Below are positions 51,755-63,098 of a stretch of DNA of 64,000 nucleotides, in pieces. The notes below the pieces were generated by a model that saw only the letters and a program-made list of their open reading frames with translations, was not told where the DNA came from and searched no databases. Where the stretch lies: NCBI GenBank assembly GCA_022484805.1, contig JAKVKP010000001.1, forward strand, positions 1-64,000. The letters run 5' to 3'. Position 1 is the first letter of the stretch; every line of letters starts with the position of its first letter. The DNA comes from Streptococcaceae bacterium (GTDB lineage Bacteria > Bacillota > Bacilli > Lactobacillales > Streptococcaceae). A program made the position numbers and the translations under genes.

Positions 51755-52288
51755 TTATTTAATTAACGTATTAAATGATTTATTTATCCACGGACTATTG
51801 ATATAATCCCAAAAATATCCTCGTTGCTCTACTTCTAATGAATCATCGAATAGTCTAATTGGAATGCTCTTCTTATTTTGACGATTCATTTCATCTTTCC
51901 ACTGAAGCCACAAATGAATAGGTACGGCAAAACATTTGTTTAATAATTCAAATCTAATTAGTAAGAAAGCAATTGAATTATTTTTCCCATTCTCAGTGAA
52001 TATACTTAGAAATTCTTCTTGATGAGGTTTCACCATTTGCTTTCCAAAAACCTCTAATGGAAAACTGGTTTTATTTTTCGTATTCTTAGCATCAAATGCA
52101 ACTGGTATTCCTTGAACATGTCCGATAAAATCACATCCAGTTTTATCAGTATTCATTGTTCTAATACCAGCTGCAGTTTTAACAGTTTTATTTCCGTTTG
52201 GTATTTTTGTAATTACACCTAGTCCCCGACGTTCATAATTTTGATTTGTTAATTCGATTTCTTTTTCAAATAAAGACCATTGCTTCAT
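51755..52288 (-). CDS. RecU-like Holliday junction resolvase
   Basis: 177 aa. FEKEIELTNQNYERRGLGVITKIPNG matches the RecU N terminus; the nuclease residues lie in CDFIGHVQGIPVAFDAKNTKNKTSFPL (D..., DAK). It resolves branched replication intermediates before packaging. Starts 4 bp inside the 40-aa gene. Confidence 0.88.
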   Translation of the reverse strand: MKQWSLFEKEIELTNQNYERRGLGVITKIPNGNKTVKTAAGIRTMNTDKTGCDFIGHVQGIPVAFDAKNTKNKTSFPLEVFGKQMVKPHQEEFLSIFTENGKNNSIAFLLIRFELLNKCFAVPIHLWLQWKDEMNRQNKKSIPIRLFDDSLEVEQRGYFWDYINSPWINKSFNTLIK

Positions 52289-54646: not shown

Positions 54647-54860
54647 TCGGCACCTCAAAATCCCCATCTTTGATACATTCAATAGCTTCATCAATAGAAT
54701 ATCCCAAAGGCTCCACAGTTAATTCGTCAGAACTGGCAAACCAACCACCATCATAACCTGCCATTTCTATCGGACCGATTAAAGGAATCCACTCAATTAC
54801 AACGTCTTTATGACCTTTTTTCTCAAGTATTTTTTTTATTTTATTGCTTTTATAACTCAT
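54639..54860 (-). CDS. Hypothetical phage protein, 73 aa
   Basis: From ATG 54860 (GAGGTGCC upstream). MSYKSNKIKKILEKKGHKD, then GGWFASSDELTVEPLGYSIDEAIECIKDGDFEVP. The last part resembles small phage proteins that end in a helix-turn with DGDF; no function known. Overlaps both neighbours. Confidence 0.6.
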   Translation of the reverse strand: MSYKSNKIKKILEKKGHKDVVIEWIPLIGPIEMAGYDGGWFASSDELTVEPLGYSIDEAIECIKDGDFEVPNE

Positions 54861-55143
54861 TCGGCACCTCTTCCACTTTAATTTCACCAAATGGCAAACT
54901 GTCATCAATCTTAATCTCTTTTCCAAAAATAATTGAATTAGTTATTGACAATTTAGTAACCTCTGTTTGCATCAAATGGTTTTTTAACAAGTCTAGTGTA
55001 TTAATACTCATTTTTATAATAATTGGTTCTCTAATCCACTGATGTTCTAATTCTTGCTGTTTTTCAAGTTCATGGATAGCTACTAAAATACTGTTAAACG
55101 TATTCACAGCCTTGGTTTTTCCTTGTTTTCTTGATCTACTCAT
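54850..55143 (-). CDS. Hypothetical protein, duplicated copy A
   Basis: 97 aa. MSRSRKQGKTKAVNTFNSIL and helix HELEKQQELEHQWIREPII, then a short strand region. Near-identical to copy B at 55,900-56,190 (about 90% of residues). Function unknown; the two copies differ at the C terminus (EEVPNEL against ENGRGA). Confidence 0.7.
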   Translation of the reverse strand: MSRSRKQGKTKAVNTFNSILVAIHELEKQQELEHQWIREPIIIKMSINTLDLLKNHLMQTEVTKLSITNSIIFGKEIKIDDSLPFGEIKVEEVPNEL

Positions 55144-55151
55144 TCAAAACC

Positions 55152-55373
55152 TCACAGTACATTATTTAATTCAACAGACTTATTATCTAAATCAAAGACA
55201 TCAATCCATATCTTTTTATTGGTTTTTAATTGACCTATTCTTGCCATAGCCCGATTAGTTTCTAGATGTCCGAAAACAATCCCGCCTTTATCAAGATTAT
55301 TCAGCATATACGAACGTATAAACTTATCTGTGTCGCCTTCGAATTCGGTAATCATAATCACTTTTTTAGCCAT
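55152..55373 (-). CDS. Hypothetical phage protein, 73 aa
   Basis: Alpha/beta: MAKKVIMITEFEGDTDKFIR, GGIVFGHLETNRAMARIG, KKIWIDVFDLDNKSVELN. Unknown. Lies between the two copies of the duplicated gene. Confidence 0.65.
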   Translation of the reverse strand: MAKKVIMITEFEGDTDKFIRSYMLNNLDKGGIVFGHLETNRAMARIGQLKTNKKIWIDVFDLDNKSVELNNVL

Positions 55374-55375
55374 CC

Positions 55376-55900
55376 CTACACCTCTTCCACTTCTCCGCCG
55401 ATTAGTTCAGCGACTAGTTCTGCTTTGCGTTTGTCGGTAAATTCATATGCATAATCTTTATTAGCTCCATTTAGACTGTGATAAGGTACGCCGTCAGTAA
55501 CGTGGCTTTTAAATTCGATAAAATACTCTTCGCTTTTTACAACCACCCAACGCTTCGGCTGCTCGACTTCGTAGCCGTTGACGACGGCGTTAATAAATTC
55601 GTCTGAATTTTTTTTTAAATATTTTGAAAAATCATTGTCAGGCTTCTTATCTACAAACCTAAAAGCATTTGCGATAATTTCTAAGTTTGACGCACCTAGT
55701 GCCCTTCCTCCTTTAATAAATTTATCTGTGCAAGTTGGCACCACTGGTTTGCTTGGTGTAGCAGTTAATTGATTAGCCTTTATAATCGCAAAATCAATTC
55801 CATTCTTAACACCTTCTATATATTTTCCTTTATCATTTTTTAATCTTTCATAATGACTTTTTAAAACTTCAATCAATACTTCTTTAGTCAATTCAACCAT
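55376..55900 (-). CDS. DUF1642 family phage protein
   Basis: 174 aa. VNGYEVEQPKRWVVVKSEEYFIEF and the following strand segment to KRKAELVAELIGGEVEEV are the DUF1642 hallmark; N-terminal helices VLIEVLKSHYERLKNDK. A common early accessory protein of Gram-positive phages, function unknown. Codon use is more GC-rich in part (55,380-55,600), hinting at separate acquisition. Confidence 0.75.
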   Translation of the reverse strand: MVELTKEVLIEVLKSHYERLKNDKGKYIEGVKNGIDFAIIKANQLTATPSKPVVPTCTDKFIKGGRALGASNLEIIANAFRFVDKKPDNDFSKYLKKNSDEFINAVVNGYEVEQPKRWVVVKSEEYFIEFKSHVTDGVPYHSLNGANKDYAYEFTDKRKAELVAELIGGEVEEV

Positions 55901-56190
55901 TAGGCACCTCTTCCATTTTCCACTTTAATTTCACCAAATGACAAACTGTCATCAATCTTAATCTCTTTTCCAAAAATAATTGAATTAGTTGTTGACAATT
56001 TAGTGACCTCTGTTTGCTTAAAATGGTTTTTTAACAAATCTAATGTATCGATACTCATATTTACAATAATTGGCTCTCTAATCCACTGATGTTCTAATTC
56101 TTGCTGTTTTTCAAGTTCGTGAATAGCTACTAAAATACTGTTGAACGTATTTGCAGCCTTGGATTTTCCTTGTTTTCTTGATCTACTCAT
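55900..56190 (-). CDS. Hypothetical protein, duplicated copy B
   Basis: 96 aa, near-identical to copy A (54,850-55,143): same MSRSRKQGK start and helix, a few changes such as KMSINT/NMSIDT. Its start overlaps the next small gene. Unknown function. Confidence 0.7.
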   Translation of the reverse strand: MSRSRKQGKSKAANTFNSILVAIHELEKQQELEHQWIREPIIVNMSIDTLDLLKNHFKQTEVTKLSTTNSIIFGKEIKIDDSLSFGEIKVENGRGA

Positions 56191-57067: not shown

Positions 57068-57925
57068 TTACAATCTCCTTCTCATTCTGTAATAAAGTCT
57101 TAGTCCAACAAATTCATCGCCTCGTAAATCATATTTAACCGTTTCTTTATGTCCTGTATCTGGGTTAACTCTTAAAAATTCGATTAATTCCCAATCAGGA
57201 TTATTTTTCTCCAGTTGTTCTTCAACATCGTTATTGGCAATCCATTTATTTAGCATCGCCTGTTTATATTTAAAATTTTGAGTTCTGGCCACTATCGGTT
57301 TTTTTAGATTCCCTTTTGATGAAAACCACTTACGCACACCTTTTCTATTTTCTTCTTTAAATTCTTTTGTTAAATATGCTGCAAATACTTCGATACCTGG
57401 TACGTATCTGCCAAAGCTTTTTTGCTTTTGAATAATTTTCACACCTGCTATTCCGATAGGTAATTTGTTTTTCCCTCTACCTTTCGTCCACAGTGCTTCA
57501 ATCTCATCTCGATTCAATTCATTGTCCATAATGAAATGATGATGCAATGCTTTTGAGTCTCCTCGACCCTCTATTACTGCCATATATTTGACAGGTGATA
57601 TACCTTTCTTTTTTCTTAGACGATTAATTCTTTGAATAAATAATCTGAATTCTTTTTCTGCTGCTTCAATATTTTCAGGATAATGATCACTATTGTATGT
57701 AAGTAAACCTAAATAATCTCCATCCTTAAAATTAGTAATTGCTGTTAATCGAAACCACTTCTGTGCATTTCTGTAATTTAGATTTTTTTGAACTGGTCTA
57801 CTAACTTCATCTTTCCTTTTCCTAGGTTTACCACCTCTGATTAAATCTACTGGTATTTCTTTACCTAGAATGACCCCCTCTTTATATTTATCTCCAGCAA
57901 ACATCTGGACATTACGCATAAACAT
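57068..57925 (-). CDS. HUH-endonuclease replication initiator (rolling-circle Rep)
   Basis: 285 aa. After a basic N-terminal part the RCR domain shows motif 1 (FRLTAITNFKDGDYLGLLTYN), the HUH motif in ALHHHFIMD near residue 127 and a catalytic Tyr with Lys in AAYLTKEFKEE near 183 (YxxK). This order (strand motif, HxH, Tyr) is that of G2P-like and other rolling-circle initiators; it nicks DNA at the origin and stays bound to the 5' end. Ends in a basic tail YRMRRRL. No helicase or helicase loader gene is in the window. AGAGG lies 10 nt before ATG 57925. Confidence 0.8.
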   Translation of the reverse strand: MFMRNVQMFAGDKYKEGVILGKEIPVDLIRGGKPRKRKDEVSRPVQKNLNYRNAQKWFRLTAITNFKDGDYLGLLTYNSDHYPENIEAAEKEFRLFIQRINRLRKKKGISPVKYMAVIEGRGDSKALHHHFIMDNELNRDEIEALWTKGRGKNKLPIGIAGVKIIQKQKSFGRYVPGIEVFAAYLTKEFKEENRKGVRKWFSSKGNLKKPIVARTQNFKYKQAMLNKWIANNDVEEQLEKNNPDWELIEFLRVNPDTGHKETVKYDLRGDEFVGLRLYYRMRRRL

Positions 57926-57979
57926 AATTAGTCAACCTCTCTATTTTTAACTACGGCTCTAAAGATAAGACCTATTTCA

Positions 57980-58010
57980 AGCTGGTAAACGCTAGCCCAA
58001 AACCAGCGTT
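57980..58010. promoter_or_regulatory. Alternative hairpins in the rep leader
   Basis: AACGCT pairs with AGCGTT, or GCTGG with CCAGC; the two hairpins share bases and exclude each other. They lie between the antisense RNA promoter and the rep start, about 60-100 nt upstream of rep. No U-run follows. Candidate control element or origin. Confidence 0.4.
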
Positions 58011-58015
58011 AAGCC

Positions 58016-58044
58016 TTGAGAAATCAACTGTTTTATGGTATAAT
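58016..58044 (+). promoter_or_regulatory. Strong plus-strand promoter in the rep leader
   Basis: TTGAGA, exact 17-bp spacer, TGGTATAAT (extended -10 with perfect TATAAT). Nothing is encoded on the plus strand here other than the short RNA below. Confidence 0.8.
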
Positions 58045-58050
58045 CCATTT

Positions 58051-58113
58051 ATTCTAGTAGTCGATTTTCTCGATTATTTTTTAGCCATCTTGCGAGGATG
58101 GCTATTTTTTTTT
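58051..58113 (+). ncRNA. Predicted antisense/counter-transcribed RNA of rep, about 63 nt
   Basis: Starts about 7 nt after the extended -10 and ends at a terminator TAGCCATC-loop-GATGGCTA followed by nine Ts. A first hairpin TCGA-TTTTC-TCGA lies upstream. The RNA is complementary to the region between the upstream gene and rep, so it would pair with rep mRNA coming from upstream. Rolling-circle plasmids such as pT181 or pMV158 control Rep this way. No protein is encoded. Confidence 0.65.
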
Positions 58114-58116
58114 ATT

Positions 58117-58449
58117 CTATTCATCTAATAAATTTTGTTGCCCTGGTTGATCGTTGTCTCCAAGTTTTTCTCTAATGACTAATTGTTCAGTCGAATCTTC
58201 AGCAATTAGTGTTACAGTTGTTTTTTTGATTGGTGCTAATTTTGTTATGAATTCGATAGAGACGCCAATTTCATCATTTTGTTTTGGATCAAATGAAAAT
58301 TTAATACTGATACTGCGTTTGCCATCCTCAACATTTTTATCTCGGATATTCTCAACAACTTTAATAATTTCTTTCTTCAACTTTTCGGTCATGTCAAAAT
58401 CGCCGATTTCATTCAAATTAACTAGAACTTTCTTTTTCTTCTCTGCCAT
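58117..58449 (-). CDS. Protein of the phage 'replication terminator protein' family
   Basis: 110 aa. NLNEIGDFDMTEKLKKEIIKVVENIRDKN... KRSISIKFSFDPKQNDEIGVSIEFITKLAPIKK is the layout of a small family usually annotated as replication terminator protein in Lactobacillales phages: helix, then repeated strands with a LAP-K end. Function not proven. It lies directly upstream of the antisense RNA and rep. Confidence 0.65.
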   Translation of the reverse strand: MAEKKKKVLVNLNEIGDFDMTEKLKKEIIKVVENIRDKNVEDGKRSISIKFSFDPKQNDEIGVSIEFITKLAPIKKTTVTLIAEDSTEQLVIREKLGDNDQPGQQNLLDE

Positions 58450-58459
58450 AACGTCGCTC

Positions 58460-58591
58460 CTAATAATCTAAATCATCATTATCCTGATCATCATTACTAT
58501 CTTCATTCGAAATGCTTAGGAACTTATAAAGTCCCCAAGCAGTCGTAATTATTGCAATAGCAATTATTATTTTTCCTATAAAAAATCCCAT
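58460..58591 (-). CDS. Membrane peptide with acidic tail, 43 aa
   Basis: MGFFIGKIIIAIAIITTAWGLYKFL, one membrane helix, then a very acidic end EDSNDDQDNDDLDY. The stop codon leads into AGGAGCG, the ribosome site of the next gene; the start follows the SPFH stop by one base. A partner of the SPFH protein is conceivable. Confidence 0.6.
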   Translation of the reverse strand: MGFFIGKIIIAIAIITTAWGLYKFLSISNEDSNDDQDNDDLDY

Positions 58592-58592
58592 A

Positions 58593-59396
58593 TTAATTAC
58601 CAGCATCCACAATCGCTTCACCAGTTTGTACTTCTACCCAACCATGCTTCATACGTGCTTGAGCTTCTGTATACCTAACCAATTCATCAGAAATTGATTC
58701 AGCTACTTTTTTATTAGATTCTGCTTCTGCCTCTGCTGCTTTTATTTCTTTATATGCATCTGAATCAGCTTTTGTTTTAACAGTTTCTGCGTCCAACTTT
58801 GCTTTTTCATTTTCTTGGCCTGCCCTGATAATGGAATCAATGGTCTTTTGAGTTTCTGAATCCACTTCTGGTACTCCAACTGTTACATCTTCAATAACGA
58901 ATCCTTTTGACTCCACGGCTTTGGCAAAACCTTTTAGTAATTCAGCCTCTACCTCTGTTGATTTACCAGATAAGACATCCAGCAATGAATATTTAGCATA
59001 AATTTCCCTTGCTTCTTTTTGAAGTTTTGACTTAAGCCAACCATTTTCAATGTCTTCAGATGTAATATTCCCGAATTCCTTATACATATTGCTTGCTTTT
59101 GTTGAATCAACTTTGTAATCATACTTAATATCAAGGGTTGTTTTCTTACCATCCGATGTGGATACCGACACATCTTTTGCTTTAATTGTCTGAAGTCTGA
59201 TTGGATATTGAATGACTTTATTCAATCCAACATATTTAACACCCTGAGTTAAAACCTCATCCTTGATTCCACCGTTCATTGAATACTGAACGCCAACATA
59301 ACCATTATCAATTTTTTCAAAAAATTTAAATCCACCAATTACTGACAATAACAAAACAACAACTCCGACAATTCCAACCTTGAATCCTTTTTCCAT
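58593..59396 (-). CDS. SPFH/prohibitin-like membrane protein
   Basis: 267 aa. N-terminal membrane anchor (VGIVGVVVLLLSVIGGFKFF, residues 6-26), then the band-7 domain (NGYVGVQYSMNGGI... QTIKAKDVSVSTSDGKKTTLDIKYDYKV) and a long coiled coil (ENEKAKLDAETVKTKADSDAYKEIKAAEAEAESNKKVAE). Such proteins form membrane scaffolds. Occurs here in the replication block; role in a phage is unclear (superinfection or replication complex docking are possibilities). Confidence 0.88.
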   Translation of the reverse strand: MEKGFKVGIVGVVVLLLSVIGGFKFFEKIDNGYVGVQYSMNGGIKDEVLTQGVKYVGLNKVIQYPIRLQTIKAKDVSVSTSDGKKTTLDIKYDYKVDSTKASNMYKEFGNITSEDIENGWLKSKLQKEAREIYAKYSLLDVLSGKSTEVEAELLKGFAKAVESKGFVIEDVTVGVPEVDSETQKTIDSIIRAGQENEKAKLDAETVKTKADSDAYKEIKAAEAEAESNKKVAESISDELVRYTEAQARMKHGWVEVQTGEAIVDAGN

Positions 59397-59441
59397 TTCT
59401 TACTCCTACTTTCTTTAATTTTTTTGAATCAGATATTTCAT

Positions 59442-59522
59442 CCAACTCTCAATGCTGACCCTGACTTTGTTACAGTTTCCGACCGATCAACAAATTATGT
59501 CAGAGTCATTACTGAGAGTTGG
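59442..59522. repeat. Multistep 81-nt inverted repeat, candidate origin hairpin
   Basis: Outer arms CCAACTCTCA / TGAGAGTTGG (59442-59451, 59513-59522); inner arms TGAC-C-CTGAC / GTCAG-A-GTCA; innermost TTTGTT / AACAAA, closing on a 17-nt loop. No U-run on either strand. It fills the gap between ssb and the SPFH gene, 59,397-59,532. Long hairpins of this type are the single-strand or double-strand origins of rolling-circle replicons. Confidence 0.6.
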
Positions 59523-59532
59523 AGTATTATTG

Positions 59533-60003
59533 TTATAGAAACGGTAAATTGTCATCTAAATTATCAATTGGCCCGTTTCCAAAATCTCTCGTATTCATAT
59601 TTGTTTGATTTTGATATTCTTGATTATTGAAATTATTACTTTGATTAAACGTATCTTCTGATTGCTGTTCTGATTCATTTTGCTTTTTAGATTCCAACAT
59701 TTGAAAATTCTCAACTATAACATCAGTCGTATAAACACGTTGGCCCTGATTATTATCATAATTTCCTGTTTGAATACGGCCAGTTACACCAATTAATGCC
59801 CCTCTTTTAGCCCAACTAGTGAAATTCTCTGCTGCTTTTCGCCAAATCACACAACGAACGAAATCAGCTTCACGCTCACCAGCTTGATTTTTAAATTGGC
59901 GATTGACGGCCAAAGTAAAACTTGCGGTGGCCACACCACCGGATGTATATCTTAAATCTGGATCCTTAGTCAGGCGGCCAACTAAAACAACATTATTTAT
60001 CAT
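59533..60003 (-). CDS. ssb: Single-stranded DNA-binding protein
   Basis: 156 aa. OB fold start [19 protein letters not shown], with [17 protein letters not shown] and [14 protein letters not shown]; glutamine/asparagine-rich linker and the acidic tip DDNLPFL, which binds host repair and replication partners. Coats single-stranded DNA, needed for rolling-circle intermediates. Confidence 0.95.
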
Positions 60004-60119
60004 TCATTTACTCCTACACATTCACTACACAAATCTGATTCCACCCAATAACAGCCACCTTGGCATGCATTAAACCAAGTACATCCACAAACTCTGCATT
60101 TTTGCTCATCATTGCTCAT
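60000..60119 (-). CDS. Small zinc-finger-like protein, 39 aa
   Basis: [20 protein letters not shown]... with seven cysteines: CRVCGC, CQGGC and CSEC. Common in Gram-positive phages beside ssb. Its stop overlaps the ssb start (ATGA). Probably binds Zn; role unknown. Confidence 0.75.
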
Positions 60120-60382
60120 ATTTTTCCTTTCAATTTTTCAAACTTAGTTAATTCTCTTGTAATAGACATCACTATATAGTTATCTTTTTGCTCATAATCA
60201 GTAAGATAGATTACCTTTACTCGAATCACTCGACTAGTAAACTTATTCTTATCATTAATTTCCTGCAAAATTAAAATATCTCCAACACAATAATTTCTAT
60301 CATTTTTTCTAATTTCAAAAGTTTTCGTTCCATTAATGATTGCTTGAAAATATTCACTCCGAATTTTTAATTCGTGGATCAT
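60116..60382 (-). CDS. DUF3850 family protein (ASCH-like)
   Basis: 88 aa. IRSEYFQAIINGTKTFEIRKNDRNYCVGDILILQE is the typical DUF3850 core; ASCH/PUA-like fold associated with RNA or modified-base recognition. Function in phage unknown. Confidence 0.82.
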   Translation of the reverse strand: MIHELKIRSEYFQAIINGTKTFEIRKNDRNYCVGDILILQEINDKNKFTSRVIRVKVIYLTDYEQKDNYIVMSITRELTKFEKLKGKI

Positions 60383-60609
60383 ATAGTTCCACTCCTTTTT
60401 GCTTCTTCATAAGATTTTCTATAGGCTTCATCTGATTCATGAAAGAAAATAACTTTTCTTAATTTCTTAATTTCCTCTCTCATAACTTCTGCAGCATGAT
60501 TTCTTCTTTTTCGCTCTTTTTCTCTTCCTTTTTCAATTCCTTTCATATATCCGTATATACCTGTAACGATTGCTACTACCAAAAAGCAGCAAATTAAGCT
60601 TATAATCAT
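60379..60609 (-). CDS. Small membrane protein with basic coiled region
   Basis: 76 aa. Membrane helix IISLICCFLVVAIVTGIYGYM (residues 2-22), then GIEKGREKERKRRNHAAEVMREEIKKL. Overlaps the DUF3850 gene by 4 bp. Unknown. Confidence 0.7.
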   Translation of the reverse strand: MIISLICCFLVVAIVTGIYGYMKGIEKGREKERKRRNHAAEVMREEIKKLRKVIFFHESDEAYRKSYEEAKRSGTI

Positions 60610-60618
60610 TTTTTCTCC

Positions 60619-60873
60619 TTAAATCCCGGCTTTATGCCTATTTTCGATGTACTGTTCACGATTTTTTATATTTTCTTTTTCTAATTTTTCGATAATATCA
60701 ATTAAGTTTGCTGTACTAAAAACTGAGAAAGATGCTGGGTGAAACTTATAATGTTTCATGCTTGGCCAATATCTTATCTGACCAAGCACTTTATTCTCAC
60801 TATCTTTAACATCAATTACACTATTTTTTATAGTTGGTGTTTTTGGCAATTCTTCAAATATTAAATCACTCAT
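60619..60873 (-). CDS. Hypothetical phage protein, 84 aa
   Basis: Two-part protein: strand-rich segment (KVLGQIRYWPSMKHYKFHPASFSVFS) and a helix (LIDIIEKLEKENIKNREQY). Unknown function; early gene. Confidence 0.65.
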   Translation of the reverse strand: MSDLIFEELPKTPTIKNSVIDVKDSENKVLGQIRYWPSMKHYKFHPASFSVFSTANLIDIIEKLEKENIKNREQYIENRHKAGI

Positions 60874-60906
60874 ACGTTATCTCCCAACTTGTGTTATAAT
60901 TAACTA

Positions 60907-60953
60907 AAATATTTTTTTAAATTCGGTCACTGTTCAAGCAGTGGCTTTTTTTC
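60907..60953 (+). ncRNA. Second predicted plus-strand short RNA, about 47 nt
   Basis: Extended -10 TGTTATAAT at 60892-60900 and, 25 nt later, a hairpin GTCACTG / CAGTGGC with a 6-nt loop followed by seven Ts. The RNA would lie opposite the leader of the 84-aa gene and the 3' end of a 43-aa gene. No clear -35. Confidence 0.45.
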
Positions 60954-61048
60954 ATGTTTCGAATATGTTGCTTTGCCTTAATTCGATGCCATTTTGAATT
61001 AATCAGTTGACAGGCATCTGTCCAATAAATCGTCCATTCTTCGTTCAT
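60917..61048 (-). CDS. Small protein, 43 aa
   Basis: MNEEWTIYWTDACQLINSKWHRIKAKQHIR..., ATG 61048 with GAGG 8 nt upstream. Rich in Trp and basic residues. Plausible phage peptide, but its 3' part overlaps the predicted plus-strand RNA hairpin, so the last residues may be fortuitous. Unknown function. Confidence 0.45.
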   Translation of the reverse strand: MNEEWTIYWTDACQLINSKWHRIKAKQHIRNMKKSHCLNSDRI

Positions 61049-61051
61049 GCA

Positions 61052-61267
61052 TTAATCCTCTAGCCTTTCTGTTATACAGTTTTGGAGATCCTTTAATGCT
61101 GATAAATAACCAATTTCATAATCAGATAAAGGAGTTCCTTTTAATAATTCAATTAATTTTGGTCCTTTTAATTGATCAATCATTGAGTCAATGGTTCTTA
61201 TCTCTATTGCTGATTTTTCTTTGAGTAATTGTTGTAACTCATCTTTCGATATTTTTATATTTTTCAC
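61052..61267 (-). CDS. Hypothetical helical phage protein, 71 aa
   Basis: ISKDELQQLLKEKSAIEIRTIDSMIDQLKG..., all helical, ending NCITERLED. Overlaps the PcfJ-like stop by 4 bp, so translation is coupled. Unknown. Confidence 0.65.
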   Translation of the reverse strand: MKNIKISKDELQQLLKEKSAIEIRTIDSMIDQLKGPKLIELLKGTPLSDYEIGYLSALKDLQNCITERLED

Positions 61268-62622
61268 GCAGCACTCCTTTTCTTCTTATTTTTCAATTTC
61301 CAAGCTAACCATTTATCAACAGCTTTATTCACATCAACAGTTGCATCTTTGTTATGTTTTCCTCTTACTTGAATAATTTGATTATGATTAAATTCCATTG
61401 TGTAAAATGGCTTATCAATCTCATCGCTTCGTCTAATAAATATTATTGTGGTCCTTCCTGTTTTATGACCCTCAACATAATTACTACCGCCAACACAATG
61501 ATGTAATGTCTTGCCCTCAACTACTAAATCATTTAGTTCCTTTGGAAAAATGAAAGAAAAACCATCAAAAGCTGTCTCATAATTTTTGGCTTGCTTCAGT
61601 CTTTCAATGTAAGCTTTTTCCTCAATCTCTATTTTCATTTGAATTAACAATTCAACTGCGTTGTTATGTGCTTTTGTTAAATCTTTTGGAATTATCAAAT
61701 TTTCACTATCAACATTTATTTTTAAATCCTTCAAAAGTGATAGATAATCACGATAATATTTGAAATCAATCTTGTTTTTGATTATCCAATTTTGAAATCT
61801 TACGAGACCGATTCCTTTAGGAATGTAATTAACATCGCGATAATCAATATATTTCTCTATGCCTGGAACAACTTTTCCACCACGTGCTCGAATACGGTTT
61901 TCAAGTTCGTAACTCATGAAACTTCGTTTTGAATTTTTAAAAAATCGCTTATTATTTCTCAACCATTTTTCGTTAATTGTCCTCATGTCCACATTTGCAG
62001 TAATACTACATGCTGAATAACTGTATCTTGGGTACATAATTTCTTCCGCTAACACTGAAGCATTTATTTTCTGAGCGAATTCTATTTCACGCCTATATTT
62101 ATAAAATCGCTCAATATCAATATCATAATTATTATCAAAATTGAGATATCTCAACTCAGACTTTTTTTTCAGTTTTTCTTCCCAGTTATTTGGATAAAAG
62201 ATCGTATCAGTATATGCTCCACCAAAATAATAATTTCTAGATAATCCATAAACAAAGTATTGTCCATATTGATCAGTTACTTTAATATGCTTGTCATTCG
62301 CAAATTTCTCGAAATTTATTAATCGCATTTCAATAGTTTGATTTCCTTCCTTAACCTCAGACCAAAAACCGTATGATTGAATTTCAATTCTTTTTTCAGT
62401 AACTAAAATTATTGCAAATGAATAAAATTTATCGAAAAAGGATAGGTTCGTTCTCTTTGTAAGTCTTTTTTCAACTACAAAACAATTTTTTCTATCTGAA
62501 GCTAAAATCGTTTTTGATTTGTTCGACCATTTAAATGTGTGTATTTGTGAGTAGCACCAATCAAAGAATGCTTTTGGTGGTTTCAATTTATGTTCGATAT
62601 AGTATTTTGGATTCCTTTTCAT
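61264..62622 (-). CDS. PcfJ-like protein
   Basis: 452 aa from ATG 62622 (GAGGTG upstream). The C-terminal PcfJ domain (about residues 360-450): FIFPKELNDLVVEGKTLHHCVGG... GRTTIIFIRRSDEIDKPFYTMEFNHNQIIQVRGKHNKD. First described on the conjugative plasmid pCF10, now common on phages and plasmids. Function unproven; conserved His-Cys in LHHCVG hints at an enzyme or metal site. Sits with the PcfK-like gene, as on plasmids. Confidence 0.8.
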   Translation of the reverse strand: MKRNPKYYIEHKLKPPKAFFDWCYSQIHTFKWSNKSKTILASDRKNCFVVEKRLTKRTNLSFFDKFYSFAIILVTEKRIEIQSYGFWSEVKEGNQTIEMRLINFEKFANDKHIKVTDQYGQYFVYGLSRNYYFGGAYTDTIFYPNNWEEKLKKKSELRYLNFDNNYDIDIERFYKYRREIEFAQKINASVLAEEIMYPRYSYSACSITANVDMRTINEKWLRNNKRFFKNSKRSFMSYELENRIRARGGKVVPGIEKYIDYRDVNYIPKGIGLVRFQNWIIKNKIDFKYYRDYLSLLKDLKINVDSENLIIPKDLTKAHNNAVELLIQMKIEIEEKAYIERLKQAKNYETAFDGFSFIFPKELNDLVVEGKTLHHCVGGSNYVEGHKTGRTTIIFIRRSDEIDKPFYTMEFNHNQIIQVRGKHNKDATVDVNKAVDKWLAWKLKNKKKRSAA

Positions 62623-62629
62623 ATACACC

Positions 62630-63031
62630 TCACATAAAGTCAAAAATCGTGGTTTGATCGTCATCAGGTTTTGATTTAATATTTATTGTTGGTTTAATAT
62701 TCTTTTCTTCGGTGGCAGCATTATTAACTGAAGTAGTAACTTTTGCATTCACTGGCTTAATCTCAACTTTTTCTAAAAGGAAATATTTTTTTACCCAACG
62801 ATATACTGTTGAATCATCAATCATGGCCACGTTATTCTCAGCTTGTTTTTTTGCTTGGCTAGTGCAATATTGCATCGCACCTTTGATTGTTCTATCCTCT
62901 TTCAATATTCCAGCAAATAGTTCCATATCATTTTGTTCGCAGAGCCAATTATGAATTGCATCTTCTGAACCTGAATGCTTTTCATTCATTTCAATTAACA
63001 TTTTTTCCATTGCTTGTTCTTTTAAATTCAT
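62630..63031 (-). CDS. PcfK-like protein
   Basis: 133 aa from ATG 63031 (GAGAGG 8 nt upstream). Helical start EQAMEKMLIEMNEKHSGSEDAIHNWLCEQND, then AMQYCTSQAKKQAENNVAMIDDSTVYRWVKKYFL, a pattern of PcfK proteins; a short acidic end DDDQTTIFDFM (possible sliding-clamp-binding QTTIFDF). Paired with PcfJ. Confidence 0.75.
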   Translation of the reverse strand: MNLKEQAMEKMLIEMNEKHSGSEDAIHNWLCEQNDMELFAGILKEDRTIKGAMQYCTSQAKKQAENNVAMIDDSTVYRWVKKYFLLEKVEIKPVNAKVTTSVNNAATEEKNIKPTINIKSKPDDDQTTIFDFM

Positions 63032-63098
63032 TAGCACATCCTCTCATTTGGTAATTTCATTTAGCAGCTATCATTTTTCAGCCTTGTCCAGAAGCCTT

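Follow-up and report, generated by a model that had tools for sequence, protein, structure and literature searches.

A tailed prophage in the genome of a Streptococcaceae bacterium (assembly GCA_022484805.1) appears to carry a phage-borne rolling-circle replicon in its early region, consisting of an HUH-type replication initiator (Rep), a hairpin origin directly upstream of the rep gene and a small antisense RNA unit beside that origin. We assign this reading, which is drawn from sequence comparison, a probability of about 0.75. The stretch analysed, hereafter the window, comprises positions 1 to 64,000 of contig JAKVKP010000001.1, and the layout of origin and antisense unit recurs in roughly half to three quarters of about 100 related phage loci. 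Overall, the phenomenon is real and broader than first reported in a preliminary description of this DNA, and we read it as a variant of known rolling-circle replicons, neither as a plasmid taken over by a phage nor as an entirely new way of replicating.

Rep and a putative double-strand origin

The rep product matches the REP_ORF2-G2P family PF23343 (37.2 bits against a curated cut-off of 27.8, E 3.8e-9) and phrog_3584, annotated as 'replication initiation protein' (E 4.8e-48). PF23343 was the only Pfam hit at E ≤ 0.1, with no plasmid Rep family and no Rep_1-type initiator, and NCBIfam held no model matching Rep or the PcfJ and PcfK proteins described below. The HUH motif is H128-H-H130 and the catalytic tyrosine is Y184, within YLTK. 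Across 70 Reps, Y184 is invariant and H128 and H130 are at least 90% conserved, the active-site helix of the relatives containing this single invariant tyrosine. An AlphaFold (AF2) model of Rep (predicted local distance difference test, pLDDT, 90.6; predicted template modelling score, pTM, 0.87) had HUH proteins as its top matches among solved structures (VIA-align). The closest was 2x3g (Z 8.2, root-mean-square deviation 3.5 over 109 residues), SIRV1 ORF119, an archaeal-virus Rep, followed by adeno-associated virus Rep (Z 6.9) and parvovirus Rep domains. Foldseek against the PDB alone gave a weak match (best E 9.6e-3), and the closest predicted viral structures (BFVD) were siphovirus 'replication associated protein' entries (E down to 1.7e-18), with microvirus Reps also present. 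An HUH Rep had been proposed in the preliminary description, and the assignment holds because of the two family matches, the conserved histidine and tyrosine residues and the predicted fold; on sequence and modelled structure the protein is an HUH nicking initiator, with moderate support from the fold.

The nearest Rep (72%) is from Floricoccus tropicus and the next (54–60%) are from Lactococcus species. Siphovirus Reps of this type already have entries in phrog_3584 and BFVD and in annotated Latilactobacillus phages, hence the distinct mode of siphovirus replication suggested earlier is not upheld as an unrecognised one. The Rep of Pilibacter termitis (L022/L119) reads HFN, with N replacing the second HUH histidine, and its origin motif and antisense promoter are intact.

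We gathered 199 Rep loci (about 120 distinct Reps, mostly from lactic acid bacteria, Paenibacillus and Clostridia), of which 122 were non-redundant and 119 usable. A profile of 26 nucleotides (nt), trained on 63 loci, detected an origin motif upstream of rep in 100 of the 119, with scores of 5.6–42 bits against a maximum of 3.9 in the 238 dinucleotide shuffles that formed the background. Thirty-seven of these 100 loci lay outside the training set, including the window (21.3 bits), in which the motif is single-copy. Distant G2P-like Reps of Lactobacillales (below ~60 bits; e.g. L010, L191-L205) lacked the motif and were excluded from the conserved set. The near-invariant consensus, CTTGTAATrGGTATTA (also CTTG-W-AAT-R-GGTATTA), lies directly upstream of rep, and C-T-.-G and most GGTATTA positions are invariant or nearly so across the 100 sites. 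In a reverse test starting from DNA only, which does not depend on how proteins were chosen, 48 of 77 new viral stretches containing CTTGTAATRGGTATTA were followed directly, on that strand, by a gene of the Rep family, and the remaining stretches were either cut off (n = 4) or without a Rep gene (n = 25). A literature text search with the exact motif found no phage paper.

A hairpin ends within 9 nt of CTTG, usually at 6–8 nt, in 65 of the 100 loci, against 13.3 expected. As many as 49 different stem sequences occur among these 65 hairpins; pairing is thus conserved though the stem sequence varies, which fits an extruded origin hairpin. Motif and hairpin together make up a putative rolling-circle double-strand origin. 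Known rolling-circle nick sites resemble the CTTG context and, judging by this resemblance, the cut would fall after CTTG. The M13 nick site is CTTT/A, printed as 5'-CTTT/ATT-3' (PMC11765958). Within the window a competing stem, GCTGGT/ACCAGC (57981-58007), overlaps the origin hairpin and ends at the nick motif.

The long origin-like hairpin of the preliminary description is a different structure, of 83 nt, located 1.5 kb from rep (Table 1). It does exist, but we rejected it as an origin since it is single-copy in the genome and has no match in any related locus compared; the conserved hairpin is the one beside the motif. The longer hairpin could be a lagging-strand start or a terminator.

A conserved antisense unit in the rep leader

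Beside the origin hairpin, on the strand opposite to rep, the window has a predicted sigma-A promoter followed by a short RNA that ends in an intrinsic terminator (Table 1). Antisense promoters and terminators were consensus predictions in all loci, and 797 regions upstream of other genes on the same contigs as the rep leaders served as controls. The promoter was found in 76 of 100 rep leaders (15.4 in shuffles, 11.4% of controls) and the terminator in 70 (22.4 in shuffles, 21.6% of controls), with sense-strand terminators in 25. Promoter and terminator occurred in order in 47 leaders, against 1.4 in shuffles and 1.1% of controls. Similar RNAs were predicted in 56 loci, with a median length of 72 nt (10–90%, 53–86 nt). 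Measured as medians, the -10 box is 55 nt away from CTTG (25–75%, 54–57) and the -35 box 6 nt away from the hairpin. When Reps were clustered at 50% identity, 11 of the 14 clusters had the antisense promoter and eight the full pair, so a single recent copy does not account for the unit. The antisense RNA that the preliminary description noted over the rep leader is therefore borne out and strengthened by its promoter, its terminator, its fold (z -4.45) and the enrichment of the ordered pair, and from these predictions it is a conserved unit beside the origin.

Rfam gave no match in 50–64 kb. On the sense strand of the rep leaders there was no terminator enrichment and no general attenuator or sequestration switch. 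Refolding of the sense leader upon antisense binding was also considered and rejected, as the rep ribosome site of the window is paired in the model with or without the RNA target blocked, therefore no attenuation switch is shown. A search of the open-access literature on rolling-circle Reps with antisense RNAs in phages returned no earlier description; the conserved origin and antisense unit thus appear undescribed, provisionally, because the search was limited to open access.

The early region and its plasmid-like genes

Profile searches of the early proteins tested gave no match to a helicase, loader or primase family. DnaB_C had no match on the prophage contig, all matches in the genome being on other contigs, and neither DnaB_C nor IstB/DnaC-type families were found in 35 phage records with this Rep, 17 of which matched the single terminase ATPase family searched. 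The window end is followed by the C-terminal part of a repressor, a lipoprotein-like open reading frame (ORF) and, just past the end, the integrase (C1:65317-66561; L016 1317-2561), with nothing else between, and then by ordinary host genes, hence the entire early region was covered. The stretch beyond 64,000 up to the integrase also lacks a recognisable helicase, loader or primase, in agreement with the preliminary description, which had recognised none in the early region. No iteron-type repeat array was found in 50–64 kb, and the host genome encodes a UvrD/PcrA-type helicase. These comparisons support a rolling-circle-type HUH Rep replicon in place of helicase-loader theta modules in the prophage and its relatives.

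PcfJ and PcfK genes, previously read as known from conjugative plasmids, are present, but they do not mark a plasmid replicon, because the PcfK-PcfJ pair of Streptococcus phage SM1 and of Listeria phage B054 stands beside replication initiation/replisome organiser and DnaC-like loader genes. Relatives of PcfJ were found in 123 phage records, some from phages with DnaC loaders, and we therefore rejected the pair as a replicon part or plasmid marker, regarding both as ordinary phage early genes. The PcfK homologue in those phages is annotated as an AcrIIA9-family Cas9 inhibitor, and over 98 residues the window PcfK shares 57% identity with the AcrIIA9-family protein of B054. Anti-CRISPR activity, with or without PcfJ, is a candidate function of the window PcfK-like gene from this likeness.

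A single plasmid record out of 72,556, NZ_CP124276.1 (L210) from Paraclostridium sordellii, encodes a Rep relative. This 33.9 kb record has tail spike, baseplate, holin, amidase/lysin and ParM-type partition genes, by which it is a phage-plasmid, and it carries CTCGTAATAGGTACTAAG 70 nt upstream of rep. An autonomous phage-plasmid with both Rep and motif gives natural support that the two can maintain a circular phage genome, and it argues that the replicon is a phage property and not a recent plasmid acquisition. The Paraclostridium phage-plasmid is also a ready natural model for the Rep replicon.

The prophage itself is complete and of siphovirus type, with TerL, portal, protease, major head protein, major tail protein, tape measure, Dit and endolysin genes as well as HNH and P27-type small terminase genes. 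The early ssb gene and the 'replication terminator' gene of the preliminary description were likewise confirmed in this tailed prophage (Table 1). SSB is a probable partner of the Rep replicon, its gene also lying near rep in several relatives, and the RecU-like resolvase is a probable late replication partner. The phrog_997 gene lies immediately upstream of the antisense terminator and its product had no Pfam family above cut-off. Between ssb and rep the early operon has a gene for an SPFH/Band-7 membrane protein (58593-59396, - strand; PF01145, E 3.5e-22); in the Faecalibacterium phage FP_Toutatis a stomatin/prohibitin-domain gene is annotated ~5 kb from rep. Two small ORFs (54850-55143 and 55900-56190) are near-identical, both beginning MSRSRKQGK, and their start regions are repeated (54850-56190, - strand), which suggests a recent tandem gene duplication.

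Table 1. Positions of the replicon features and neighbouring genes in the window.
Feature	Position	Strand	Evidence
RecU-like Holliday junction resolvase	51755-52288	-	PF03838 E 1.7e-28
rep, single-tyrosine HUH replication initiator, 285 aa	57068-57925	-	PF23343, phrog_3584
Putative nick-site motif of double-strand origin, CTTGAAATAGGTCTTATC	57964-57981	-	Profile, conservation
Origin hairpin AACGCT/AGCGTT, 6 nt before CTTG	57988-58010	-	Hairpin enrichment in relatives
Antisense sigma-A promoter TTGAGA-17-TATAAT, extended -10 (TG)	58016-58044	+	11/12 match
Antisense RNA, predicted ~60 nt, two stem-loops	58051-58112	+	RNA fold -19.9 kcal/mol, z -4.45
Intrinsic terminator of antisense RNA	58082-58112	+	10-bp stem and T run, predicted at 58082-58104
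'Replication terminator' family protein (name only)	58117-58449	-	phrog_997 E 3.1e-14
Long imperfect hairpin, 83 nt	59441-59523		DNA fold z -5.1; between SPFH gene and ssb
ssb, single-strand DNA-binding protein	59533-60003	-	PF00436 E 3.2e-33
PcfJ	61264-62664	-	PF14284
PcfK/AcrIIA9-like	62630-63037	-	PF14058

Known systems, proposed mechanism and alternatives

Other tailed phages with PF23343/phrog_3584 Reps (Latilactobacillus TMW 1.1365 P2 and TMW 1.1381 P1, Terrisporobacter TPDSL_ph2, Faecalibacterium FP_Toutatis) have this same family as their sole recognisable initiator. The Latilactobacillus and Terrisporobacter phages share the origin motif and antisense unit with the window, and the Rep and motif of TMW 1.1365 P2 are both present in induced and sequenced siphophage DNA. 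Strain TMW 1.1365 is an inducible lysogen, and virions were seen in its lysate (PMC10688831). The records of these phages annotate Rep just as a replication protein and leave the origin and antisense RNA unannotated. The Rep of FP_Toutatis is distant (26%) and the motif was not found there.

Initiators of the P2 gpA type have a two-tyrosine active site, unlike the window Rep family with its one invariant active-site tyrosine (Y184). The plasmids pC194 and pUB110 have a nick context resembling CTTG^A. Like the window, they have an origin upstream of rep, a single catalytic tyrosine in the initiator and a predicted antisense RNA in the rep leader (PMC5703833). In contrast to these plasmids, the window Rep belongs to another Pfam family, rep is read from a long phage early operon, and transcription of the predicted antisense RNA would begin next to the origin and lead away from rep, not over its translation start. 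In M13/f1 the complementary-strand start is adjacent to the origin. Its gene II origin shares with the window an HUH nickase, a hairpin and a nick at CTTT/A (PMC11765958), but belongs to a single-stranded filamentous phage, whereas the window prophage is that of a double-stranded tailed phage with cos-type packaging genes. The RNAI of pSK41 and of pT181 are 83–87 nt long and antisense to the rep leader, that of pSK41 with two stem-loops (PMC5703833), as predicted for the window RNA; unlike theirs, sense leaders of the window type have no general attenuator or sequestration switch. Lambda OOP RNA (promoter pO) is likewise short, terminated and antisense; it lies by the origin, in the interval from an early gene to the initiator gene, and is convergent to early transcription (PMC3985674, PMC5869508). 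The window unit, as predicted from sequence, also specifies a short RNA with its own terminator, which would pair with early mRNA just upstream of an initiator gene. Lambda initiates theta replication with O/P, however, whereas the window unit stands next to a putative nick site for rolling-circle replication; we do not suggest that the two are related in sequence.

In the mechanism that we propose, Rep would bind the origin element after induction, the hairpin would extrude and Y184 would cut the rep-coding strand after CTTG. The 3' end would be extended through rep by the host PcrA-type helicase and PolC, and SSB would coat the displaced strand. The antisense RNA would destroy or interfere with read-through early mRNA carrying rep, a restraint that would keep replication off in the lysogen and limited early. 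The nick, the direction, the partners and every RNA function in this scheme are inferred. That the RNA acts like lambda OOP or plasmid countertranscript RNAs, restraining rep, is an analogy to which we give even odds. As the -35 box lies so close to the hairpin, Rep on the origin and RNA polymerase on the promoter may exclude each other. A tentative and rather doubtful extension is a compact switch in Firmicute tailed phages, in which polymerase at the OOP-like promoter would hold down both Rep expression and access to the origin during lysogeny; Rep bound at the origin would, in turn, silence the RNA and commit the phage to replication.

The antisense promoter could instead act in cis, negative supercoils behind the polymerase aiding hairpin extrusion and the terminator merely shielding early genes from antisense transcription. 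The tight promoter-nick spacing, against a looser RNA length, fits this role, and HUH nickases such as M13 P2 require supercoiled DNA (PMC11765958). In lambda, the pO promoter affects the function of ori through interference with pR transcription (PMC3985674), and this restraint of convergent transcription is a direct precedent for the OOP-like and cis-promoter readings both. The spacing may, however, reflect just a compact hairpin and promoter block, and supercoiling needs no strong terminator nearby, so that we consider a cis role unlikely. Priming of complementary-strand synthesis on the displaced strand by the antisense transcript, in the manner of the M13 minus origin or plasmid single-strand origins (sso), seems distinctly improbable: the direction fits, in that the RNA would be copied from the rep-coding strand, the inferred displaced strand, and RNA polymerase does prime plasmid ssoA as a folded single strand (PMC5703833), but a sigma-A consensus promoter with a strong intrinsic terminator (47/100 loci) suits double-stranded DNA and a discrete RNA, and known sso elements are larger folded structures.

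For the replicon as a whole, the preliminary description favoured a plasmid replicon captured by a phage. The layout does resemble that of rolling-circle plasmids, in which the origin precedes rep and the leader has an antisense RNA (PMC5703833), but the lone relative in 72,556 plasmid records is itself a phage-plasmid, Pfam gives PF23343 and no plasmid Rep families, the nearest predicted viral structures are siphovirus and microvirus Reps, and PcfJ/PcfK are typical of ordinary phage early regions, which makes capture highly improbable. Rep could also be an accessory, theta replication being started instead by host DnaB and an initiator not recognised as such among the small unassigned early genes, given that several early ORFs have no family match and DnaD-like replisome organisers are diverse. 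We hold this to be very unlikely, as 50–64 kb has no iteron-type array, loader-type families are absent from 35 relatives, and Rep and origin alone recur across the group.

Several observations nevertheless weigh against a phage-borne rolling-circle replicon. The lack of helicases was judged from profile searches, and a good many of the IMG/VR records could be incomplete. The HUH fold matches are moderate (Z 8.2), and a sequence search of the PDB found no Rep relative. The antisense promoter was unrecognised in 24 of the 100 leaders and the ordered pair in 53, and the 100 loci are related by descent, forming one cluster at 40% identity. Furthermore, the window motif deviates at two near-invariant positions, T>A after CTTG (in no other locus of the 100) and A>C in GGTATTA, and its origin may therefore be altered or weakened; the motif of the Floricoccus relative fits the consensus. 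The deviation could reflect drift in the window prophage or co-evolution of its Rep.

A phage-borne rolling-circle replicon would provide a concrete origin candidate for widespread, barely studied tailed phages without a recognised helicase or loader. In most cases the 16-base core is enough to predict a Rep gene with no protein information, which allows origins to be annotated in phage genomes already sequenced. A replicon of this type also raises the direct question of how rolling-circle copying would supply the packaging machinery, for which concatemers are usually required. The antisense units suggest that antisense RNAs beside initiator genes, known in lambda, recur with an unrelated replication mode, and the replicon would mechanistically link these tailed phages to single-stranded phages and rolling-circle plasmids.

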